Source: Acidimicrobiaceae bacterium
GTDB taxonomy: Bacteria; Actinomycetota; Acidimicrobiia; Acidimicrobiales; Ilumatobacteraceae
DNA length: 37,464 nucleotides
Assembly: GCA_024641005.1 (NCBI GenBank)
Contig: JAHEDX010000029.1
Span: 2,532-39,995 of the forward strand
Reading direction: 5' to 3'
This document shows positions 990 to 13,239 of the stretch, piece after piece; position 1 is the stretch's first letter; each line of letters begins with the position of its first letter. The notes beneath the pieces were generated by a model, which saw only the letters and a program-made list of their open reading frames with translations, was not told where the DNA came from and ran no database searches. The translations under genes were made by a program, and so were the position numbers.

Positions 990-2039
990 GTGACCGAGCG
1001 CAAGATCGTGACCGTGCTGGAGCCGGAGGACGAGTACACACATGTCCCTGACGACTCGTCCAACTACAACGAATCGATGTATCTGAACGGCTTCGATCTG
1101 CAACGCGAGGTCGGCGGATGGTTCCGGCTGGGCAACCGTGTCAACGAGGGCTACGCCGAGATGACGGTGTGCCTGTACCTGCCGGGCGGCCGGGTCGGAT
1201 TCATGTACCAGCGTCCGCCGATCTCGGAGAACAGTGAGATGCGCGCCGGCGGGCTGCACATCGAGGTGATCACCCCCTTCGAGGAACTGCGGGTCGCCTA
1301 CGACGGCGAGGTCTGCCTGCTCGACGATCCGCTGCAGATGGCGGACCCGCGCCAGGCGTTTCGCGACAACCCGCGCGTCGCGTGCACCGTCGATCTGACG
1401 GTGCGAGGTATGTCGCCGATGTACGGCGGGCGAGCCGTCTATTCCGATGGAGGTGACATCCCCGTCGATCCCGATACGAGCTTCGCCAAGGCCCACTACG
1501 AACAACACACTCGGGTGTCCGGCGTGATCACGGTCGGTGAGGAAGTCATCGAACTCGACGGCTTCGGGCTGCGCGACAAGTCGTGGGGACCCCGGTACTG
1601 GCAGGCGATCACGTGGTATCGCTGGCTGCCGATCATGCTCGGGCCCGATCTCGCGATGATGCTGTCGGTCATCGGTGACCCGGCGGGCGGCGAGCCTCGG
1701 CAGGGAGGCATGGTGCTCAGCAACGGAGAGTATCGGCGCTTCACCGAGGTACAGATCGAGAGCGAGTTCGACGACGCCGGCCATCAGACTGCGATGCGAT
1801 GCCGTGCGCGCACCGAACAAGGTGACGTCTATGACGTCACCGGCGAGGTGATCTCATTGATCCCACTTCGCAACCGCCGGGTCACACCCGACGGCGACGA
1901 GCTCGTAACGAGGATCACGGAGGCGATGACCCGGTACCGATGCGACGGGTACGTCGGGATCGGGATGTCCGAGTACCTCGACCAGGTCGTCGACGGCCGA
2001 CCGATCGGCCCCGACATCACGCCCCGGCCACCGAAATGA
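990..2039 (+). CDS. DUF7065/DUF7064-like beta-rich protein of unknown function
   Basis: 349 residues with GTG start, preceded by a good ribosome binding site (ggaggag at 978-984, 5 nt spacing). The sequence has the layout of a family common in mycobacteria and other actinobacteria: an N-terminal phrase with NYNESMYLNGFD and REVGGWFRLG, a middle region with HYEQHTRVSG, then DGFGLRDKSWGPRYW and a tail ending in RYRCDGYVGIGMSEYLDQV. These proteins are annotated DUF7065/DUF7064 and are thought to fold like AttH/CrtC-type beta-barrels. No enzyme activity is established. The RDKSWG motif is a conserved loop and a candidate ligand or active-site region. There is no signal peptide or membrane segment. 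Family assignment is from memory of motifs; function is unknown. Confidence 0.8.
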   Translation: MTERKIVTVLEPEDEYTHVPDDSSNYNESMYLNGFDLQREVGGWFRLGNRVNEGYAEMTVCLYLPGGRVGFMYQRPPISENSEMRAGGLHIEVITPFEELRVAYDGEVCLLDDPLQMADPRQAFRDNPRVACTVDLTVRGMSPMYGGRAVYSDGGDIPVDPDTSFAKAHYEQHTRVSGVITVGEEVIELDGFGLRDKSWGPRYWQAITWYRWLPIMLGPDLAMMLSVIGDPAGGEPRQGGMVLSNGEYRRFTEVQIESEFDDAGHQTAMRCRARTEQGDVYDVTGEVISLIPLRNRRVTPDGDELVTRITEAMTRYRCDGYVGIGMSEYLDQVVDGRPIGPDITPRPPK

Positions 2040-2162: not shown

Positions 2163-2852
2163 ATGGCCGAACTCGACTTACTCGACCGGGGTTATGCGGC
2201 AGTGATGCGGCGGGTGATCGACACCGGGCAGGCACAGCACTACACCGAGCTGGCCACCGAGCTCGGGATCGAGCTGGCGGCAGCACGCGACCTGGTCCAC
2301 GAGTTGGTCGCGGTCACCCCTGGCTGGACCCATCCCGGCACCGACCATCTCGCGTCGTTCCCACCGTTCAACATCCAGCCGACCCAGTACCGCGTCACGA
2401 TCGACGGTGAGCAACGGTGGTTCGCGCAATGCGGATTCGAAGCACTTGCCACGCGCTGGCTGGTACCCGGCAAGCAGGTGCGCATCGATGCGCCGTGCCT
2501 GTGTTGCGGCGAGCCGATCGCGATCGAGATGCGCGACGACGACATCACAGCGATCGAACCCGAGCAGACGGTCGGTTACACGAGCTGCGAAATCGGAGGT
2601 GACGCTGCCAGCAGACCGTTCAGATGAATGAACATGAATCTCTTCCGGTCGGAAGAGCACGCACGCAACTGGGACGGCTACGACGATTCGATGGTCTCAA
2701 GCCTGATGCCTGTCGCCGTATGGGCCGACATCTTCTCCAATCCGTTCTTTCGCGAACGCGGCCGCATCGACTACATCTCGTGGACACGTTCCGAGGCCGG
2801 CGCGGACGCGTTCACCTCGTTGAGAGCCCTGCTCCCGCGGGCCAGCGGCTGA
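2163..2852 (+). CDS. MerB-like (alkylmercury lyase family) candidate selenoprotein with in-frame UGA
   Basis: Read through the TGA at 2625-2627, the frame gives 229 residues with Sec at position 155. The upstream part (154 residues) stops at TGA, and the next codon is ATG in the same frame, continuing with NLFRSEEHARNW and a C-terminal domain that belongs to the same family. The layout follows MerB: an N-terminal helix-turn-helix-like region (about 11-50), then FAQCGFEAL (C90 and E93 at the positions of MerB C96 and D99), then C112/C114/C115 and IEPEQTVGYTSC. The UGA lies 65 residues after C90, where MerB has C158/C159 63 residues after C96, just before the conserved FFAS/LFRS segment. C159 is a catalytic cysteine in MerB. 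A SECIS-like hairpin follows at 2640-2657. Ribosome binding site: gaggggaa about 7 nt before the ATG. MerB cleaves carbon-mercury bonds; the substrate here is unknown. Alternatives are a nonsense mutation or two coupled half-genes. The second half alone would lack a ribosome binding site and a complete fold. Confidence 0.75.
2640..2657 (+). promoter_or_regulatory. Candidate bacterial SECIS hairpin of the MerB-like gene
   Basis: Perfect 7-bp stem ctcttcc (2640-2646) / ggaagag (2651-2657) closed by a GGTC tetraloop. The loop starts 19 nt after the TGA at 2625-2627. The fdhF SECIS of E. coli has its GGUC(U) apical loop about 18 nt after the UGA, and SelB contacts the G and U of that loop. Stem, loop sequence and spacing all fit. 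The same bases encode LFRSEE, which is conserved in the family, so some of the sequence is also constrained by protein. Confidence 0.7.
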
Positions 2853-9162: not shown

Positions 9163-10389
9163 CTAGCGAGGAATGACCTGGCCCTTCTTCACTACGACGA
9201 TGCCGTTGGGGCTGATCGTGAAGCGCTTGGCGTCCTCGTCGGGGTCGAGGCCGATACGGGCCCAGTCGGGCACGATCACGTTCTTGTCGATGATGCAGCG
9301 CTGCAACCGCGCCCCCGAGCCGATGTGAGCGCCTTCCATGACGATCGAGTCGATGACGTGTGCGTCGTGGTCGATGAACACGCTGGGACTGATGATCGAA
9401 CGCTCGACGTGCGACCCCGACACGATCGACCCTTGGCACAGCAGTGAGCCGTCGACGAACGACGGCTCACCTCCGACACCGCGCGACACCTTCGCCGGCG
9501 GTAGCGCCTTTCGGTGCGTGTAGACGGCCCAGTGGTCGTTGTACAGGTTGAACACCGGAACCGGGGCGATGAGGTCCATGTTGGCCTCGTAATACGAGTC
9601 GAGCGTGCCGACGTCGCGCCAGTAGCCCCGCTCACGCTCGTCCTGGCCGGGAACGACGTTGGTGGAGAAGTCGTAGACGTGCGCCACACCTTGACGGGTG
9701 AGCGCCGGGATCACGTCGCCACCCATGTCCATCAGCGGATTCGTCTGGTCGGGTGTGACGATGTCGATCAACGTCTGGGTGTCGAAGACATAGTTCCCCA
9801 TGCTCGCCAAACACCGGGTGTCGTCGCCGGGCATGGTGGGCGGGTTGGCGGACTTCTCGTGGAACTCGATGATCTTGCCGTCGGCGTCTGACTCGATCAC
9901 GCCGAAATCGGTCGCCTCACGCCGGGCGACGGGGATCGCTGCGACCGTGACGCCGGCACCGCTCTGGAGGTGATGATCGACCATCTGACGCGGGTCCATC
10001 CGGTAGATGTGGTCGGCACCGAAGACACAGACGATGTCGGGGCGTTCATCGGTGATCAGATTGAGGTTCTGGTAGATCGCGTCGGCGGAGCCTTGGAACC
10101 ACTGCGGACCACGTCGCATCTGGGCCGGGACCGTTGCGACATAGTTGTCGAGCTGGTCGGAGAACCGCCAGGTCTGGCTGATGTGGCGGTCGAGGCTGTG
10201 ACTCTTGTACTGCGTCAGCACGACGATCTTGAGATATCGGGCGTTTGCGAAGTTCGAGAGAGCGAAATCGATGATGCGATACGTGCCGCCGAACGGCACC
10301 GCCGGCTTGGCCCGGTCGTTGGTGAGGGGTTGCAGGCGTTTGCCTTCGCCACCGGCGAGCACCATCACGAGCACTTTGGGATCAGCCAT
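9163..10389 (-). CDS. glgC: Glucose-1-phosphate adenylyltransferase
   Basis: 408 residues from ATG 10389 (MADPKVLVMVLAGGEG); an upstream in-frame GTG is possible but lacks support. The N-terminal nucleotidyltransferase has LAGGEGKRLQPLT, the effector/substrate-loop AKPAVPFGGTYRIIDF, QGSADAIYQN, FGADHIYRMD and the Glc1P-binding FHEKSANP. A left-handed beta-helix follows (IDHDAHVIDSIVMEG, GARLQRCIIDKNV). It makes ADP-glucose, the committed step of glycogen synthesis, and in this family is usually allosterically regulated by glycolytic intermediates. It is divergent from ppc. A TACCCT element 7 nt before the ATG suggests a leaderless mRNA. Confidence 0.96.
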   Translation of the reverse strand: MADPKVLVMVLAGGEGKRLQPLTNDRAKPAVPFGGTYRIIDFALSNFANARYLKIVVLTQYKSHSLDRHISQTWRFSDQLDNYVATVPAQMRRGPQWFQGSADAIYQNLNLITDERPDIVCVFGADHIYRMDPRQMVDHHLQSGAGVTVAAIPVARREATDFGVIESDADGKIIEFHEKSANPPTMPGDDTRCLASMGNYVFDTQTLIDIVTPDQTNPLMDMGGDVIPALTRQGVAHVYDFSTNVVPGQDERERGYWRDVGTLDSYYEANMDLIAPVPVFNLYNDHWAVYTHRKALPPAKVSRGVGGEPSFVDGSLLCQGSIVSGSHVERSIISPSVFIDHDAHVIDSIVMEGAHIGSGARLQRCIIDKNVIVPDWARIGLDPDEDAKRFTISPNGIVVVKKGQVIPR

Positions 10390-10396
10390 CAATCGC

Positions 10397-10402
10397 AGGG
10401 TA
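10397..10402 (-). promoter_or_regulatory. Candidate -10 element of glgC (leaderless)
   Basis: On the minus strand, TACCCT is followed by 7 nt and the glgC ATG at 10389. No ribosome binding site lies between. No clear -35 is seen. Confidence 0.35.
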
Positions 10403-10485
10403 CACACCGGCCGGGCCCGCTACATCGACACGGCGACGACGAGACACTGTCCGCACCGCGACATCCCGGTGCAGACTGGTCGGCG

Positions 10486-13239
10486 ATGAGCAGCACCAGT
10501 GGGGCAGACGCGAGCGACGACATCCGGTTGCTCGGAAGGATCGTCGGCGACGTGTTACGGGATCAGGCCGGCGACACGACGTTCGAACTCGTCGAGCACG
10601 TCCGGCGCATCGCCGTCGACGCCCGCCGCGAAGGCCGGGATCCGACCGCTCCCCTCACGATGGTGCTCGGTACCGCCGATGTCGCGGAACAACTGCACGT
10701 CATCAGGGCGTTCGGCTGGTTGTCGCTGCTGGCCAATACCGCCGAGGATCTTCACCAGGAACGACGACGGCGACATCACCGGGACACCGGGTCGGCCCCC
10801 CAGGAGGGCAGTCTCGAGGCAACGCTCGACCGATTGATCGCCCGCGGGGTCTCGATCGACAGGATCGTTGCGGAACTCGGAGACCTGACCGTCTCCCCGG
10901 TGATCACGGCCCATCCCACCGAGGTGCGGCGCAAGACCGTTCTCGATCGCATCGACGCTGTGTCGAAGCTGCTCGACCGGCGAGCCCGCTCGGCAAGCAG
11001 TCGGAGCGAACTGGCAGACATCGATGCGGAGCTGCGATTGGAGATCCTGACGTTGTGGCAGACAGCAATACTGCGGCTCTCGAAGCTGCGGGTACGCGAT
11101 GAGATCAACGAGGCCCTTCGGTACTACCGCTCGAGCATCTTCGCGACCGTGCCGCGGTTGCAGCACGACTTGGAGCATCTGGTGGGCGACCGACTCGGCG
11201 CAGCGGTGCACAACCCGCGTGCGATAGCGATGGGCTCGTGGATCGGAGGGGACCGCGACGGCAACCCGTTCGTGAACGCAGCCGTCCTGCGTCTCGCTGT
11301 CGAATCGCAAGCGGCCGAGGCGTACCGGCACCACCTGGTGGCGCTGCACGACCTGTCCCGAAGCCTGTCGATGTCGAACCGTCTCATCACGCCGACGCCG
11401 GCGCTGCTGTCGCTCGCCGATGCGTCCACCGACGACTCACGATTCCGTGCCGACGAGCCCTACCGGCGAGCGCTGCGCGGTATGCATTCGCGATTGTGGT
11501 CGCTGGCCGAGACCGTGCTCGACGAGGTTCCCGGACCGGCGCCCCACGCCGCTCTCCCGGCCTACGGTTGTGTCGACGACCTCGTCGACGACCTCGAGGT
11601 GGTCTCCCGATCACTGCGTTCCCACGGCGCGGGAGCGGTCGCCGAGGCACGTGTCGACCCCGTTCGACGAGGCGTCGAGATCTTCGGCACCCACCTGTGC
11701 GGGCTCGACATGCGGCAGAACTCGGCGGTGCACGAAGCGGTGCTCGACGAACTGTTCCGAGTCGCCGGGGTCGACGACGACTACCTCGCCTTGGCCGAGT
11801 CGGACCGGATCGCTCTGCTCACGAGAGAATTGCAGGGCCAGCGGCCATTGGCCAGTGAGTTCGTGACATATTCCGACACGACGACCGGTGAGCTCGAGGT
11901 GCTACACGAAGCGGCGGCAGCACACCGGCGGTTCGGTCCTCGATCCGTGCCCCACTACGTCATCTCGATGGCGACATCGGTCAGCGATGTACTCGAAGCC
12001 GCCGTGTTGCTCAAAGAAGTCGGGCTCGTGCGGGTCGACCCGGCAACCGGAACCATCTCGAGCGCGCTCGACATCGCTCCCCTGTTCGAGACCATCGACG
12101 ACCTGCGCGCCGCCGGCGGCACCTTGTCTGCCCTGCTGGGTCATGAGCGTTACGGGCAACTCGTCGACAGCCGCGACGGTTGGCAGGAGGTGATGATCGG
12201 CTATTCGGACTCGAACAAAGACGGTGGCTACGTAGCGTCACAGTGGGCGTTGTTCGGTGCCCAGCGCTCGCTCGTCGCCGCTGCCGAGCAGTCCGGGGTC
12301 CGCATCCGACTGTTCCACGGGCGCGGCGGCACCGTCGGACGGGGCGGCGGTCCCGCCTACCAGGCGATCCTCGCCCAACCGGCTGGTTCGGTGCACGGAG
12401 CGCTCCGCATCACCGAGCAGGGCGAGATGGTGTCCGCCAAATACGCGAAGCCGGCCTCGGCGCGCCGCAACCTCGAGACTCTCATGTCGGCGACGCTCGA
12501 GGCCAGTTGCCTGGACGCCCAACAACTCGGCGACGACGAGGATCGATTCACCGCAGCGATGGAAGCGCTCGCATCACACGCACTCGACTCGTACCTCGAT
12601 CTGATCGACGGCTCGTCCGAGCGGTTCGTGAACTTCTTCAGGTCGATCACGCCAATCGGCGAGATCGCCAGCCTCAACGTCGGAAGCCGGCCGGCGTCGC
12701 GGCGCAACACGGGCCGCATCCAGGATCTGCGAGCGATCCCGTGGGTGTTCGGATGGAGCCAATGCCGACTCAACATCCCCGGCTGGTTCGGTGCCGGGAG
12801 CGCCTTCGAAACCTTCGCAACCGACGCCGAACACGAAGCGACGTTGACGGCGATGCACGATCGGTGGCCGTTCTTCCGAGCGATGCTCAACAACATGGGC
12901 ATGGTGTTGGCGAAGACCGACTTGGGCGTGGGGCGCTGTTATGCGGACGGATTGGTGGCGGATGTGGCCGCCCGTGACGAGATCTTCGGCGTGATCGAAC
13001 GCGAATACTCGTTGGCCTGCCACTGGCACGCTCGTATCACCGGGTCGAGCGACCCGCTCGCCGACAATCCGGTACTGGCTCGCAGCATCCGCAACCGATT
13101 CCCGTATCTCGATCCGCTGCACGTCATGCAGGTCGACCTGCTGCGCCGATACCGGGCAGGCGAGCAGAACGAACTCGTCGAACGGGGCATCCAGCTCACG
13201 CTCAACACGATTGCCACGGGGCTCCGCAACAGCGGCTAG
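10486..13239 (+). CDS. ppc: Phosphoenolpyruvate carboxylase
   Basis: 917 residues from ATG 10486 (MSSTSGADASDDIRLLG). The frame is open farther upstream, but that part overlaps glgC on the other strand and is not PEPC-like. Motifs in order: catalytic-His VITAHPTEVRRK (about 139-150), GSWIGGDRDGNPFV (about 249), IGYSDSNKDGGY (about 571), and FHGRGGTVGRGGGPAY (about 609). The C-terminus has NELVERGIQLTLNTIATGLRNSG, with the usual carboxy-terminal NTG replaced by NSG. It carboxylates PEP to oxaloacetate in the cytoplasm (anaplerosis). The normal length is about 900 residues, so it is complete. Confidence 0.97.
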   Translation: MSSTSGADASDDIRLLGRIVGDVLRDQAGDTTFELVEHVRRIAVDARREGRDPTAPLTMVLGTADVAEQLHVIRAFGWLSLLANTAEDLHQERRRRHHRDTGSAPQEGSLEATLDRLIARGVSIDRIVAELGDLTVSPVITAHPTEVRRKTVLDRIDAVSKLLDRRARSASSRSELADIDAELRLEILTLWQTAILRLSKLRVRDEINEALRYYRSSIFATVPRLQHDLEHLVGDRLGAAVHNPRAIAMGSWIGGDRDGNPFVNAAVLRLAVESQAAEAYRHHLVALHDLSRSLSMSNRLITPTPALLSLADASTDDSRFRADEPYRRALRGMHSRLWSLAETVLDEVPGPAPHAALPAYGCVDDLVDDLEVVSRSLRSHGAGAVAEARVDPVRRGVEIFGTHLCGLDMRQNSAVHEAVLDELFRVAGVDDDYLALAESDRIALLTRELQGQRPLASEFVTYSDTTTGELEVLHEAAAAHRRFGPRSVPHYVISMATSVSDVLEAAVLLKEVGLVRVDPATGTISSALDIAPLFETIDDLRAAGGTLSALLGHERYGQLVDSRDGWQEVMIGYSDSNKDGGYVASQWALFGAQRSLVAAAEQSGVRIRLFHGRGGTVGRGGGPAYQAILAQPAGSVHGALRITEQGEMVSAKYAKPASARRNLETLMSATLEASCLDAQQLGDDEDRFTAAMEALASHALDSYLDLIDGSSERFVNFFRSITPIGEIASLNVGSRPASRRNTGRIQDLRAIPWVFGWSQCRLNIPGWFGAGSAFETFATDAEHEATLTAMHDRWPFFRAMLNNMGMVLAKTDLGVGRCYADGLVADVAARDEIFGVIEREYSLACHWHARITGSSDPLADNPVLARSIRNRFPYLDPLHVMQVDLLRRYRAGEQNELVERGIQLTLNTIATGLRNSG

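Follow-up and report, generated by a model that had tools for sequence, protein, structure and literature searches.

A MerB-like gene with an in-frame UGA in an Acidimicrobiaceae bacterium very probably encodes a selenoprotein

A 37,464-nucleotide stretch of an Acidimicrobiaceae genome (GCA_024641005.1, contig JAHEDX010000029.1), here called the window, carries a gene that very probably encodes a relative of MerB in which selenocysteine (Sec) replaces a key mercury-binding cysteine. Judged from sequence, the product is probably a selenoprotein and a MerB-fold lyase with Sec at the position of the catalytic Cys159, whose substrate would most likely be an organomercurial. The selenoprotein reading follows from the conservation of the UGA across phyla, the presence of Cys in its place in a minority of homologues, a covarying hairpin downstream and the full Sec machinery in the genome. 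The first-pass annotation, made from the letters of the window, had proposed a candidate selenoprotein, and these results, together with lower nonsynonymous than synonymous divergence (dN < dS) past the UGA, uphold it. The features of the gene, with window positions, are as follows:

2163..2852, forward strand: read-through frame of the Sec-MerB gene (154 residues, then Sec and another 74 residues, up to the stop TGA at 2850-2852)
2430..2432, forward strand: TGC codon of C90, aligned with MerB Cys96; TGA in eight relatives
2439..2441, forward strand: GAA codon of E93, aligned with MerB Asp99
2625..2627, forward strand: TGA within the frame, taken to encode selenocysteine (U155); counterpart of MerB Cys159
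2640..2657, forward strand: hairpin of the selenocysteine insertion sequence (SECIS) type, stem 2640-2646 with 2651-2657, loop GGTC at 2647-2650

Reading frame and relation to MerB

Besides the TGA at 2625-2627, no stop occurred in the frame before its natural end, in agreement with the earlier reading. The ATG is preceded by a purine-rich stretch (GAGAGAGGGG) that resembles a ribosome site. The read-through protein matched the Pfam MerB family (PF03243) with 68.8 bits and the part before the TGA with 48.1 bits, both above the gathering cut-off of 27 bits, whereas the 74 residues after the TGA had no Pfam match when searched alone. The difference between the two scores indicates that the part after the TGA contributes family signal, as had been claimed for the continuing frame.

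When the protein was aligned to MerB 1s6l with HMMER and residues were numbered by their order in the printed chain, residue 155 (UGA) fell on Cys159, C90 on Cys96, E93 on Asp99 and C112 on Cys117. The proposed positions of C90 and E93 were thus recovered. The UGA had been placed on or next to C158/C159, of which Cys159 stood, but the neighbouring MerB cysteine is Cys160, not C158. MerB2 (5c17) also has Cys at the position matching the UGA. Cys96, Asp99 and Cys159 are named as essential in MerB in PMC8261052. This triad is not fully kept in the window protein, which has C90 for Cys96 and differs from both classical MerB (R831b MerB, PDB 1s6l, 3f0o) and MerB2 in Sec for Cys159 and Glu for Asp99. 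With the classical MerB profiles NF009710 and NF033555 it scored 36.5 and 34.4 bits, below the curated cut-offs of 193 and 200. The modelled protein is predicted to form a single continuous fold spanning residue 155, with a structural match to the MerB fold over most of the chain and 16-20% identity in the model-based alignments to classical MerB and MerB2.

Conservation of the UGA codon

Relatives came from a scan of genome contigs (48 loci), from same-family genomes (matches in 17 of 200) and from a profile search of phylum genomes (matches in 31 of 396); the counts omit a weak match in G289 (one TGA, E 9.3e-4) and the second copies present in G484 and G421. Of 61 loci from the contig scan and the same-family genomes, among them that of the window, 60 had TGA at the aligned codon, and the single non-TGA locus (L084) was a broken gene. 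L084 and L085 are copies interrupted by frame breaks, from two metagenome bins. When a profile was run across all loci, the site was TGA in 85 of 92 aligned records, TGC or TGT in seven (L032, L102, L103, L110, L112, L114, L116) and anything else in none; it was never TAA or TAG. The 85 include two repeat fetches (L087 of L020, L107 of L035), and their distinct downstream sequences number 81. Such recurrence of TGA at the same codon argues against chance, and homologues with Cys or TGA at this codon, which the first-pass annotation had regarded as favourable, account for all 92 records. In the part after the UGA, dN was below dS in 13 of 13 pairs, which were hand-picked and include several saturated dS values.

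The named sources of the relatives include Acidimicrobiia, Rokubacteria, Methylomirabilota, Nitrospinota, Tectomicrobia, Myxococcota and one bin labelled Burkholderiales. The named records of the contig scan are all titled metagenome bins, so single taxon labels may be wrong. Further TGA-bearing MerB-like branches (L023-L031, L033-L038, L091-L101 and L104-L111, ranges that include some non-TGA loci) mostly have Asp at the Asp99 position and differ in their flanking motifs (FTUSTMNLF, UxTIxFLRSED, UANMLLFRSEEH). Loci L049-L055 have a C-terminal extension of ~145 residues past the MerB domain, for which the copy in L050 had no Pfam match.

Selenocysteine machinery

The window's genome contains selA, selB, selD and tRNA-Sec (selC, anticodon tca), each above its own cut-off, so the absence of these four genes, named beforehand as grounds for rejection, does not apply. 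The same genome holds a molybdopterin enzyme (L124; G000:C44:3819-5090, minus strand) with one in-frame TGA in the motif SCNRTUHAPSV, which we take to be a Sec-type formate dehydrogenase. Its protein is unrelated to that of the window gene, but the two genes share an in-frame UGA followed by a GGUC hairpin; in L124 (GUGGUC-GGUCU-GGCCAC) the GGUC lies at nucleotides 22-25, and in the window gene at 23-26. L124 serves as a positive control for Sec decoding in this genome.

In a set of 54 genomes, selA was above the cut-off in 52 (all but G228 and G230); in this set G008 and G123 were not shown to hold a TGA gene. In the phylum sample, it was found in 20 of 22 genomes with the TGA gene, the two misses being 68% and 73% complete. 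Among near-complete genomes, defined by rounded completeness values, all 15 with the TGA gene had selA versus 181 of 301 overall (one-sided p 3.8e-4, in a test that ignores relatedness).

The downstream hairpin

Twelve nucleotides after the UGA, the window gene has a 7-bp stem with a 4-nt loop (CUCUUCC-GGUC-GGAAGAG). Across the 81 distinct sites, all seven stem pairs were present in 60, six in 18 and fewer in three (L100; L106, whose gene has a second stop; and L080, which holds an N), and the loop was GGUC in 76. One group of marine Acidimicrobiaceae has UUGUUCA-GGUC-UGAACAA, in which both stem sides are altered and a Glu-to-Gln change preserves pairing. In an alignment of 35 sites chosen out of the 81 (A3), 94.5% of cells paired, versus 42-60% when the sides were slid and a shuffled mean of 83.2%, and six of the seven stem pairs showed changes on both sides.

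As the stem is itself coding sequence, the sites were compared with synonymous recodings that drew on the codon usage of each site (79 of the 81 sites; L062 and L080, which hold N, were excluded). The GGUC loop was observed in 74 of 79 sites versus 16.0 expected, Watson-Crick pairs were 6.49 versus 4.50 expected, and the mean energy was -13.9 versus -10.4. Furthermore, where the ninth codon after the UGA encodes Glu, it was GAA in 64 of 82 cases, versus 345 of the 1081 Glu codons in the remainder of the genes. None of the seven Cys forms had the GGUC loop; L116 formed 6 pairs and the other six 2 to 5.

Relation to SaoL

The first-pass annotation had held that a Sec-containing MerB may be undescribed. 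A MerB-like protein with Sec already appears in two reviews (PMC13188914, PMC9312934), and the later one, PMC13188914, names it SaoL, with motif CU and profile NF040728, citing Haft and Gwadz 2023. By this account SaoL, a MerB-like organometallic lyase of the SAO system, is like the window protein related to MerB and holds one Sec. What remains of the novelty claim is that the window protein scored 36.5 bits with the SaoL profile, below the curated cut-off of 140, and lacks the CU motif: it has Arg before U155 (RU), and Cys preceded U155 in none of 85 records. Query residues 14-135 aligned to positions 18-141 of the 159 in the profile, so that the profile would end near residue 153, which hints that the Sec of SaoL lies at the same site as U155. 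The SaoL profile matched 37 of 38 relatives in one alignment (A1), with a best E of 2.2e-14. Of the SAO context (SaoB, SaoC, SaoT and others), none appeared by name among the Pfam-scanned window neighbours; the genome was not searched with Sao models.

A literature search, in which subscription journals were thinly covered, found neither a Sec-MerB reported from Acidimicrobiia or Rokubacteria nor any report on a double-Sec MerB, and a term search found MerB unmentioned in the main texts of PMC2398784, PMC5029168 and PMC12013277. By its sequence, for which the evidence of Sec is strong, the Sec-MerB of the window is a new form of an already known kind of Sec-containing MerB-like protein.

Relatives with a second UGA

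In eight loci (L021, L045, L046, L047, L086, L088, L089, L090), the codon at the Cys96 position is also TGA, and all eight have Glu at the Asp99 position. These candidate double-selenocysteine MerB proteins appear to carry Sec at both mercury-binding positions. A 6-bp hairpin with GU at nucleotides 22-23 followed the first TGA in 8 of 8 of these loci versus 14 of 88 loci with Cys at the Cys96 position; it is weaker evidence than the hairpin after UGA155 because a conserved Val codon dictates the GU.

A tree of 84 of the 103 profile hits, from which hits that did not have Cys or Sec at both sites, L061, L087, L106, L107 and pieces shorter than 140 residues had been dropped, holds five of the seven Cys forms, some on very long branches. 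The double-Sec label requires three changes in this tree, forced by supported branches, which may represent one gain and two losses. The window gene belongs to a 10-row clade with four double-Sec members, and its C90 may therefore be a reversion. Such exchange of Cys and Sec at the Cys96 position provides ready natural variants for enzymology.

Four of the double-Sec proteins (L021, L088, L089 and L090, whose C-terminal part lies at L117:10515-11588) continue for ~360 residues beyond the second UGA. The extension of L090, the one tested, had a weak AAA match (24.0 bits, cut-off 21.2). L090 is encoded in the one-contig actinobacterial genome G558, where merA lies at a distance of 3.2 kb and a MerR-family gene at ~2.5 kb; the region with these genes is given by L117:5441-7503 and 10032-11588.

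Genomic context

Upstream of the Sec-MerB gene, a DUF7065/DUF7064 gene (window 990-2039, same strand) ends 123 bases before its start; co-transcription of the two is possible. Pfam searches of chosen open reading frames (ORFs) in the window identified this gene, a luciferase-like monooxygenase, a histidine phosphatase, a zinc-ribbon protein, a penicillin-binding protein and central metabolism genes. Clustering of ORFs around the loci revealed no recognisable mer partner; most of the clusters listed consisted of spurious high-GC ORFs or were drawn from genomes closely related to one another. A search of the window's genome for MerA gave nothing above the cut-off (best 323.7 bits versus 454.45).

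A merA query from L117 was run against 99 locus records, of which some overlap and whose flanks differ in length. It matched L117, the Cys-form loci L112, L114 and L116, and L056 and L077 at 32-38% identity; merA thus adjoins three of the seven Cys-form loci. A plasmid search returned five records, all annotated merB, at 25.8-32.0% identity.

Alternative explanations

Several observations weigh against a Sec-containing organomercurial lyase. Folded alone, the window hairpin was not significant (z -1.31, and -0.44 and 0.20 for longer stretches); its support comes from comparison, and in the synonymous recoding only 23 of 79 sites fell within the best 5% by folding energy. selA is common anyway, in 152 of 200 genomes of the family and 236 of 396 of the phylum, and the tested hosts of Cys forms also have it, except G611. 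Most relatives are metagenome bins. As to mercury, MerA was above its curated cut-off in just 2 of 56 genomes with the TGA gene, a difference from classical MerB, and there was no mer gene among the window neighbours tested; these two results make the mercury part weak. Glu also replaces Asp99 in the window protein.

The rarity of MerA and the Glu at the Asp99 position would equally suit a MerB-fold selenoprotein whose target is not organomercury but another organometal or organometalloid, which it would bind or cleave, or whose role is to sense or buffer metal. We regard this as a real possibility, although the less likely one. It also gains from the absence of a conserved mer partner around the loci, from window neighbours unrelated to metals and from the four extended double-Sec relatives, with their AAA match where tested. 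However, the residues at the two metal-ligand positions and at Cys117 are either retained or exchanged for Sec, subfamilies comprising 32 loci have Asp at the Asp99 position, and G558 has merA and merR 2.5-3.2 kb from its double-Sec copy.

Termination at the UGA with restart at a nearby AUG, giving two subunits, is very unlikely. An AUG is the third codon past the UGA in 76 of 85 records, and the window has an additional AUG directly after the UGA, but the third codon is ATC in the other nine. The stop at the site is never TAA or TAG, yet these terminate 25 of the 81 distinct genes (23 TAG, 2 TAA; 55 end in TGA and one runs off its contig). Cys homologues run uninterrupted through the site, a restart needs neither the covarying hairpin nor its fixed spacing, and the model predicts one continuous fold across residue 155.

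A pseudogene or sequencing error, as the breaks elsewhere in L084 and L085 might suggest, is scarcely credible with the same codon TGA at 81 distinct sites and dN < dS past it. A genetic code in which UGA stands for a standard amino acid, for example Trp, would leave the frame open but is equally improbable, given that the window gene itself and 55 of the 81 relatives terminate at TGA, that homologues have Cys and not Trp at the site, and that the genome has tRNA-Sec, selA, selB and selD.

Proposed mechanism and implications

For a Sec-containing MerB-fold lyase, SelB would bind the hairpin and deliver Sec-tRNA at the UGA. By analogy with MerB, the metal would sit between residues 90 and 155: the selenolate of U155 and the thiolate of C90 would hold the metal atom of the substrate, an organometal and most probably an organomercurial, for instance methylmercury, and E93, in the place of Asp99, would donate the proton that frees the hydrocarbon. 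The metal ion would then be held on the Se/S pair until cellular thiols remove it. Mercury is bound far more tightly by selenols than by thiols, and selenium would aid the capture of a very dilute substrate. MerB proteins with one or two selenols offer a natural test of the effect of selenium on carbon-metal bond cleavage.

More tentatively, and with slightly less than even confidence, we suggest that a large Sec-MerB family in Actinomycetota, Rokubacteria, Nitrospinota, Myxococcota and others may use a selenium site to cleave carbon-metal bonds, in most cases with no MerA present, and that it includes two groups with U90 and U155, one of them with an AAA-like domain. Estimates of methylmercury breakdown would overlook such genes, because annotation with the standard code would truncate them at the UGA and because at least one merB survey, a marine one (PMC12874090), discards sequences without Cys-96, Asp-99, Cys-117 or Cys-159. 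If the suggestion is true, surveys that require Cys159 would miss all Sec-MerB, and more methylmercury demethylators would exist than are now known.
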